NCBI RefSeq assembly: GCF_000177215.2 | Contig: NZ_CM001368.1 | Location: 806,001-870,000, forward strand | DNA from: Solidesulfovibrio carbinoliphilus subsp. oakridgensis | Lineage (GTDB): Bacteria; Desulfobacterota; Desulfovibrionia; Desulfovibrionales; Desulfovibrionaceae | Reading direction: 5' to 3' | Length of the DNA stretch: 64,000 nucleotides | Part shown: positions 30,971 to 32,593 of the stretch, piece after piece | Position numbering within the stretch: the stretch's first letter is position 1 | How the letters are laid out: the number at the start of each line of letters is the position of its first letter | Translations under genes and position numbers: made by a program | Notes under the pieces: generated by a model | What the model saw: the letters and a program-made list of their open reading frames with translations, nothing else | Database searches by the model: none | What the model was told of the DNA's origin: nothing

Positions 30971-31182
30971 CGCTCGATCCCGACACGGCGACCGTGCTTG
31001 AGGTCGTGGCCGCCTGCCCGGCCACCCAGGCCGTCTTCCGACGCTACGACACGGCGGCCGGCTGCTGTCTTTTGTGCGAAGGGCTTTTCGAGACCATCTG
31101 CGGGCTCGCCGCCCGGTTCGACCTTGACCGGGAGGCGCTCGTAAACGATCTTCGGGCCGTGATGAAAAAGGAAGAAGTATGA
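30967..31182 (+). CDS. DUF1858-like small CxxC redox-type protein
   Basis: 71 residues from GTG at 30967. The wording matches DUF1858 / hybrid-cluster-associated disulfide domains: TVLEVVAACPATQAVFRRYD, then AAGCCLLCEGLFETICGLAARF, LDREALVNDL. Three cysteines lie in GCCLLC plus one in ETICGL. It should be a small cytosolic protein, perhaps a thiol or metal carrier. Start overlaps the ABC exporter stop (4-base coupling) and its stop overlaps the selD ATG (gtATGA), so all are translated together. That places it directly at selD, where a selenium or sulfur function is possible (inference). Confidence 0.75.
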   Translation: MTLDPDTATVLEVVAACPATQAVFRRYDTAAGCCLLCEGLFETICGLAARFDLDREALVNDLRAVMKKEEV

Positions 31183-32228
31183 CGATCGAACTGGTCAAGA
31201 CCGTCACCGCCGCCGGCTGAGCGGCCAAGATTCCTCCAGGGGACCTGGAGGCCATCTTGCGGGGCCTGCCCCCTGTCACCGATCCTCGCCTGCTGACCGC
31301 CCAGGGTGTCAACGAGGATGCGGCCGTGGTGCGCCTTCCGGACGGCCGGGGCCTGGTTCAGACCGTTGATTTCTTCACGCCCATCGTCAACGATCCCTAC
31401 AAGTTCGGCCGCATCGCCGCGGCCAATGCCCTGTCCGACGTCTACGCCATGGGCGGGGTGCCGCTTTCCGCCATGAACATCGTCTGCTTTCCCGTAAAGA
31501 CCATGGACCGGATGATCCTGGCCGAGATCCTGCGCGGCGGCCTGGACGCGGTGCTCGAAGCCGGAGCCGTGCCGGCCGGCGGGCACAGCGTGGAGGACAA
31601 GGAGATCAAGTACGGCCTGGCCGTCTCGGGCCTGGTCGATGCCGACGGCTTTGCCGCCAACACGGGGCTTGTGCCCGGCGACGTGCTCCTCCTGACCAAG
31701 CCGCTCGGCACCGGCGTCCTGGCCACGGCGCTCAAGGGAAATTTCGGCGACGCGGCCGTGCTCGAAGACCTGCTTTTTCAGTGGGCCGGCCGGCTCAATG
31801 CCGCCGGTGGCCGGGTCATCCGGGAGCTGGGCCTCAAGGCGGCGACCGACGTGACCGGCTTTGGCCTCGGCGGCCATGTGCTGGAAATGGCGCGGGCCTC
31901 GCATGTGGCCGTGGAGCTGCGCCTGGCCGACATCCCCTTCCTGCCCCAGGCCGTGGAACTGGCGGGCCTGGGCATGTTGCCCGCCGGCAGCTTCGCCAAC
32001 CGCAACTACTGCGCCAGCGCGGTGTCCGTGGCCCCCGGCCTGGACCCCATCCAATCCGATCTGGCCTTCGACGCCCAGACCTCCGGCGGCCTGGTCCTGG
32101 CCGTGCCCGAAGCGAAAGTGGAGGCGGCAAGAAAGATGCTACTCGATGCCGGGGATCTTGCGGCGGTTATTGGACGGGTGGTGGAGGCAGAGGCAGCGGA
32201 AGGGGCGGCGAGGCTGCGGCTGATTTGA
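31179..32228 (+). CDS. selD: selenide, water dikinase (selenophosphate synthetase) with in-frame UGA selenocysteine
   Basis: 349 residues if the TGA at 31218-31220 is read as Sec14. Without readthrough the gene would seem to start at 31257. Residues: ATG 31179, then TVTAAG-Sec-AAK, where Sec and Lys17 line up with catalytic Cys17 and Lys20 of E. coli SelD. Downstream: TDPRLLTAQGVNEDAAVV, VDFFTPIVNDPYKFGRIAAAN, AGGHSVEDKEIKYGLAVSG and DVTGFGLGGH, all SelD motifs. It makes selenophosphate from selenide and ATP for Sec-tRNA and tRNA selenation. A hairpin follows the UGA. Start overlaps the DUF1858-like gene by 4 bases. Confidence 0.95.
31218..31259 (+). promoter_or_regulatory. UGA codon and bacterial-type SECIS hairpin of selD
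   Basis: TGA 31218-31220. Six bases after it a stem begins: caagat (31226-31231) / atcttg (31254-31259), then a single bulged T (31232) opposite cc, then cctccagg (31233-31240) / cctggagg (31244-31251) with a GGA loop. A bulged U below a short G-containing apical loop close to the UGA is what SelB recognises in bacterial SECIS elements. Confidence 0.8.
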
Positions 32229-32251: not shown

Positions 32252-32593
32252 ATGTATTACGATGTGATCTTTCATTTTGATCAAGACGCCGAAAAACTCA
32301 GTGTCGCTTTAAGCAATGTACGAAACTATATAAAAGCACTTCACGCTGAAAGTTTCACCATTGTTCTTGTGGTAAACGGACCCGGCATCAAAATGATGGG
32401 CAAGACCGATAGCCAGGCAGAGCAACTCACAGAATTAGCCTCGCTCGGCCTCAGTGTCCGTGTCTGTCAAAATGCCTTGCATCACTTCCATCTCAAGCCG
32501 GAATGGCTCAATCCTGTCTGTCAAATAGTTCCTGCGGGAATTATTGAAATTGTCGATCTTCAAAGAAAGGCTTTCACCTACATCAAGCCCTGA
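32252..32593 (+). CDS. DsrE-like family protein
   Basis: 113 residues. DsrE/DsrF-like fold (small alpha/beta, hydrophobic first strand): MYYDVIFHFDQD, ALSNVRNYIKAL, FTIVLVVNGPGIKMM, QLTELASLGLSVRVCQNALHHFHL and CQIVPAGIIEIV. Cys in VRVCQNAL lies at the position of the sulfur-carrying Cys in many DsrE relatives. The gene is clearly richer in A+T than its neighbours, so it may have come in by transfer or be under different selection. It follows selD by 23 bases. DsrE-type proteins move sulfur (and, in some selenium loci, selenium); its role here is inference. Start ATG at 32252 has a weak gag. Confidence 0.75.
   Translation: MYYDVIFHFDQDAEKLSVALSNVRNYIKALHAESFTIVLVVNGPGIKMMGKTDSQAEQLTELASLGLSVRVCQNALHHFHLKPEWLNPVCQIVPAGIIEIVDLQRKAFTYIKP

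Follow-up and report, generated by a model that had tools for sequence, protein, structure and literature searches.

The window, i.e., the whole 64,000-nt stretch of DNA analysed here, contains a selD gene with an in-frame TGA at 31218–31220, flanked by genes for a small Cys-rich protein and a DsrE-like protein (Table 1). As the initial annotation had proposed, the TGA shares one frame with the ATG at 31179 and the body of SelD; the nearest in-frame stop upstream of this ATG is at 31125, and the frame ends at the stop 32226–32228. The start of selD overlaps the stop of the preceding 71-aa gene (ATGA). Motifs of the AAGGA type before a start codon can serve as ribosome-binding sites, and one of them precedes selD. 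Both the position of the ATG and a GGA in front of it are found in all ten genus loci shown (10/10).

Table 1. Features of the selD locus, in positions of the window
Feature	Position	Strand	Basis and remarks
Cys-rich small protein, 71 aa	30967..31182	+	CC..C motif; between ABC transporter gene and selD
Likely selD ribosome-binding site, AAGGA	31168..31172	+	Sequence; six bases 5' of ATG
selD, selenide, water dikinase (selenophosphate synthetase)	31179..32228	+	349 aa, putative Sec at residue 14; TIGR00476
Predicted bacterial SECIS-type hairpin	31227..31258	+	Fold and comparison with relatives
Shortened ORF with TTG start	31257..32228	+	Given by a mechanical ORF list; active-site loop missing
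DsrE-like protein	32252-32593	+	23 bases 3' of selD; PF02635, 29 bits (cut-off 22.7)

Read through the TGA, the product scores 337.4 bits against the curated equivalog model TIGR00476 of NCBIfam, well over its cut-off of 125, falls just short of a second SelD equivalog model (NF002098; 294.6 bits, cut-off 299), and matches both AIRS domains in Pfam. The in-frame starts between the TGA and position 31330 are TTG 31257, GTG 31326, and GTG 31329. The part after 31257 is 83–85% identical to sequences of Solidesulfovibrio aerotolerans, S. alcoholivorans, and Desulfovibrio sp., which puts the source of the window within Solidesulfovibrio or close to it. The main relevance of the locus is to annotation: a mechanical ORF call, which starts at the TTG, loses the first 26 residues of SelD together with its active site; the initial annotation had expected this start of a standard gene caller.

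Among solved SelD structures, 3u0o, which we take to be the Cys form of the E. coli enzyme, is homologous to the window protein across residues 3–341. The alignment sets residue 3 on residue 6 and runs without gaps until residue 30; hence Cys17 is the counterpart of Sec14 and Lys20 that of Lys17, in agreement with the earlier matching of Sec14-AAK to Cys17-xx-Lys20 of E. coli SelD. The two proteins differ in that the E. coli enzyme has Cys where Sec is expected here, and its second Cys (CGCK) is Ala in the window protein (UAAK). U14 and K17 also align with the CAAK of solved chain 2yye. Chains 2yye and 2zod are presumably Aquifex SelD, whose natural residue at this place would be Sec13; the AAK and PGDL motifs C-terminal to the active-site residue are common to both proteins, whereas the solved chain has Cys where the window SelD has Sec. 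Conserved catalytic Cys and Lys residues within a glycine-rich N-terminal loop are described for the Leishmania enzyme in PMC7595633. A literature search for Cys17 together with Lys20 gave no match.

SelD matches with E-values of 0.001 or better were found in 218 of the 247 genomes of the order. For comparison of the codon at the Sec position we used 110 loci, i.e., the window's own, 29 that were fetched, and 80 chosen from the remaining listed matches, the latter including each of the three listed matches that lacked an internal TGA. At the Sec position, 107 of these loci have TGA and three have TGC; all nine same-genus relatives are among those with TGA. At the level of the phylum, SelD matches over the cut-off occur in 220/247 genomes and, among the matches listed, four have no internal TGA and the others have one each. 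In genus g3, 54 of the 71 genomes have a SelD match over the cut-off, and 49 of these 54 have one internal TGA within the match. Four of the other five were read: two of the three TGC genes, and L148 and L152, both with TGT, i.e., Cys, at the Sec position. The fifth, G204, has a SelD match without TGA.

In the 110 loci and the two TGT genes, no relative with a residue other than Cys or Sec at this position was seen, which had been named in the initial annotation as an observation that would speak against a selenoprotein; the motif search for hairpin pairs accepted only U or C at residue 14, so that other residues were undetectable by it. Of the residues that immediately precede the Sec position, Val9 (92%), Ala11 (93%), Ala12 (93%), and Gly13 (100%) are conserved across the 107 UGA genes. 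Lys7, Thr8, and Lys10 are not (33–63%).

In the predicted fold of the window RNA, six bases separate the TGA from the first paired base. A lower stem of 5 bp is followed by a bulged U at 31232, an upper stem of 8 bp (31233–31240 paired with 31244–31251), and an apical loop GGA at 31241–31243; the distance from the TGA to the loop is 20 nt (31221–31240). The fold energy is −22.2 kcal/mol for 48 nt and −20.0 kcal/mol for 42 nt. These features fit the bacterial SECIS model as set out in the relevant part of PMC13188914 (loop of 3–9 nt with a G in the first two positions, stem of 4–16 bp, UGA-to-loop distance of 16–37 nt, energy of −7.5 or lower); loop, stem, spacing, and energy all agree, and no departure from that part of the model was seen. 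Taken alone, the fold of the window is weakly better than that of shuffled sequences (z = −1.82; 9 of 200 shuffles equally good), and a search of the window with Rfam at gathering scores returned SRP RNA and tRNA only, with no SECIS. It is the comparison with relatives, and not the lone fold, that makes the predicted hairpin convincing.

At least six of the seven upper-stem pairs are present in 106 of the 107 UGA genes, and the remaining gene has five; loss of the hairpin with UGA retained, the other refuting observation named in the initial annotation, was therefore not seen in these 106 genes. Elsewhere in the 110 genes, a pairing of at least 6/7 occurs at 391 of 30800 codon positions. When the codons of the hairpin residues were redrawn synonymously, 4125 of 21400 trials attained it; the protein sequence by itself thus biases the stretch somewhat towards the stem without explaining it. 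The exact hairpin core is present in 75/107 UGA genes. Unconstrained 42-nt folds of these genes contain seven of the pairs in 74 cases, six in 19, five in 11, four in one, and none in two (L069 and L072); the fold of L098 reaches only −7.2 kcal/mol. The hairpin is also where synonymous variation has its minimum: the ten lowest of 183 usable eight-codon windows all begin at residues 13–22 and show 0.43–0.79 of the expected variation, the median of all windows being 0.99. The 107 UGA genes are a set in which the hairpin restricts the codons 3' of Sec. The variation, pair counts, and redraws together uphold a constraint at the RNA level across relatives, and so favour the SECIS role that the initial annotation had assigned to the putative hairpin.

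Covariation within the seven-pair stem is thin. One pair is A-U in 54 genes, G-U in 46, and a C-U mismatch in 7; another is G-C in 95 and G-U in 5, with a two-sided change to A-U in 3; the remaining pairs are mostly fixed. The eighth pair, 31233/31251, varies on both sides (GC 51, CG 14, UG 10, UA 6) and is unpaired in 26/107 genes, but its variation may be driven by the protein, because its 5' base is the first base of a codon. A bulged U is known from the SECIS of E. coli fdhF. The hairpin described here differs in that its bulged U is not conserved: position 31232 is C in 44 of the UGA genes, T in 34, A in 15, and G in 14. It is position 31231 that is an invariant T; this is the second base of codon 18, a codon for Ile or for a different residue whose codon has T in the middle. 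Hence, of the hairpin as originally described, the GGA loop, the six-base spacing, and the bulged U in the fold of the window stand, whereas the bulged T is variable in relatives.

The genome encodes the machinery for selenocysteine. A tRNA-Sec scoring 82.7 bits (cut-off 47) is located approximately 4.7 kb before the window, and ARAGORN calls tRNA-SeC with anticodon TCA at the same place; two further places in the genome narrowly exceed the cut-off, with 48.8 and 48.3 bits. SelB (358.2 bits, cut-off 242.25) and SelA (613.5 bits, cut-off 267.9) are both present. Two FdhA genes over the cut-off contain one in-frame TGA apiece, the TGA being counted regardless of its position in the protein. As a separate observation, two in-frame TGA codons occur in L131 (G000:C1:3513472-3513813), whose match to formate dehydrogenase is weak.

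The frame, its conservation, the constraint on the RNA, the homology to SelD, and the presence of the machinery are direct observations; the insertion of Sec and its catalytic role are suggested by analogy with the known pathway. On these grounds, we are nearly certain that selD of the window encodes selenophosphate synthetase as a selenoprotein, the UGA being read as Sec by means of SelB and the downstream hairpin. With a ribosome at the UGA at 31218, SelB carrying GTP and Sec-tRNA-Sec would bind the hairpin just downstream and deliver selenocysteine in place of termination. In the resulting enzyme, Sec14 with Lys17 would substitute for the Cys/Lys pair of Cys-type SelD, and the product would be selenophosphate, formed from selenide and ATP.

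The TGA could instead be a true stop, with SelD beginning at TTG 31257 and lacking the N-terminal active-site loop. The mechanical ORF list gives exactly this start, and a solved chain, 2zau, probably the N-terminally truncated Aquifex SelD named in a reference title, matches the window SelD from residue 35 onward only. Nevertheless, the conservation of Val9, Ala11, Ala12, and Gly13 ahead of the TGA in the 107 UGA genes, the unchanged place of the ATG in all genus loci, and the five Cys relatives, which read straight through the position, make such a short protein very unlikely. A sequencing error, or a nonsense mutation in what was a Cys codon, could also produce the TGA by a single base change, as TGC and TGT are one base away from TGA and are present in some relatives; the occurrence of the same TGA in 107 of 110 loci of different genomes, including every same-genus relative, reduces this probability almost to nothing.

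Alternatively, near-cognate suppression might insert some other amino acid at the UGA, the hairpin being merely a stimulator of read-through. Stem-loops after the UGA of SPS genes that disfavour termination (SRE/HRE) are indeed discussed in a section of PMC4561486. Against this, the genome has tRNA-Sec, SelA, and SelB, both FdhA genes likewise contain one in-frame TGA, and Cys is the sole other residue seen at the position, and we consider suppression of this kind highly improbable.

Sec-containing SelD is the reading that we retain, and it is a correct but ordinary case. Desulfovibrio vulgaris and D. desulfuricans presumably belong to the same order as the organism of the window. Their selenoproteomes, as given in Table 3 of PMC1794560, include SelD, so that the same enzyme is listed as a selenoprotein in another genus, the comparison being drawn from that listing. 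The same source, in its part on selenoprotein counts, reports 38 Sec-containing SelD proteins and names FdhA and SelD as the most widespread selenoproteins; according to PMC4561486, Sec is encoded by 19% of the SelD genes detected in its reference genomes, and its position never differs. SelD has long been counted among the selenoproteins, including in the two Desulfovibrio species; Sec-SelD is already well known in these bacteria, and the window leaves the knowledge of SelD unchanged.

Five Cys genes were read, and three of them (L089, L148, and L152) have 6–7 of the seven stem pairs after the Cys codon, while L092 and L093 have two. Among the TGC genes, L089 keeps 7/7 pairs. The hairpin therefore does not separate Sec from Cys genes. 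The stems in L089, L148, and L152 are likely remnants of a lost SECIS, and their presence in three of five genes fits a recent change from Sec to Cys that left such remnants; SECIS-like structures after Cys codons are mentioned in one place in PMC1794560.

A second set comprises 26 UGA genes of genus g3, and six or more of the seven pairs are present in 25 of them; at least one gene (that of G226) is common to this set and the 107 genes. The retention of the hairpin alongside UGA thus holds for 25 genes of this genus, with the exception of L141, where the UGA is accompanied by 4/7 canonical stem pairs. The stretch in L141 still folds at −16.2 kcal/mol, and the gene may use a different hairpin. 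Its sequence 3' of the UGA (PPQVLAGLL) resembles that of the Cys genes.

The 71-aa protein was found by tblastn in all nine same-genus loci and in L062, among 109 relative loci; its best Pfam match is ScdA_N (E 0.029, below the cut-off), and it has no match in NCBIfam at E 0.001. One might picture this protein, the DsrE/YedF-like protein, and SelD as a selenium-handling unit of Solidesulfovibrio, in which the small protein would pass selenide to the Sec enzyme, but we regard this as unlikely. The DsrE-like protein resembles YedF weakly, its 20.2 bits falling short of the cut-off of 110, and it is present in three of the 109 relative loci (L020, L022, and L023), 80 of which extend to approximately 600 bases of flanking sequence or less.
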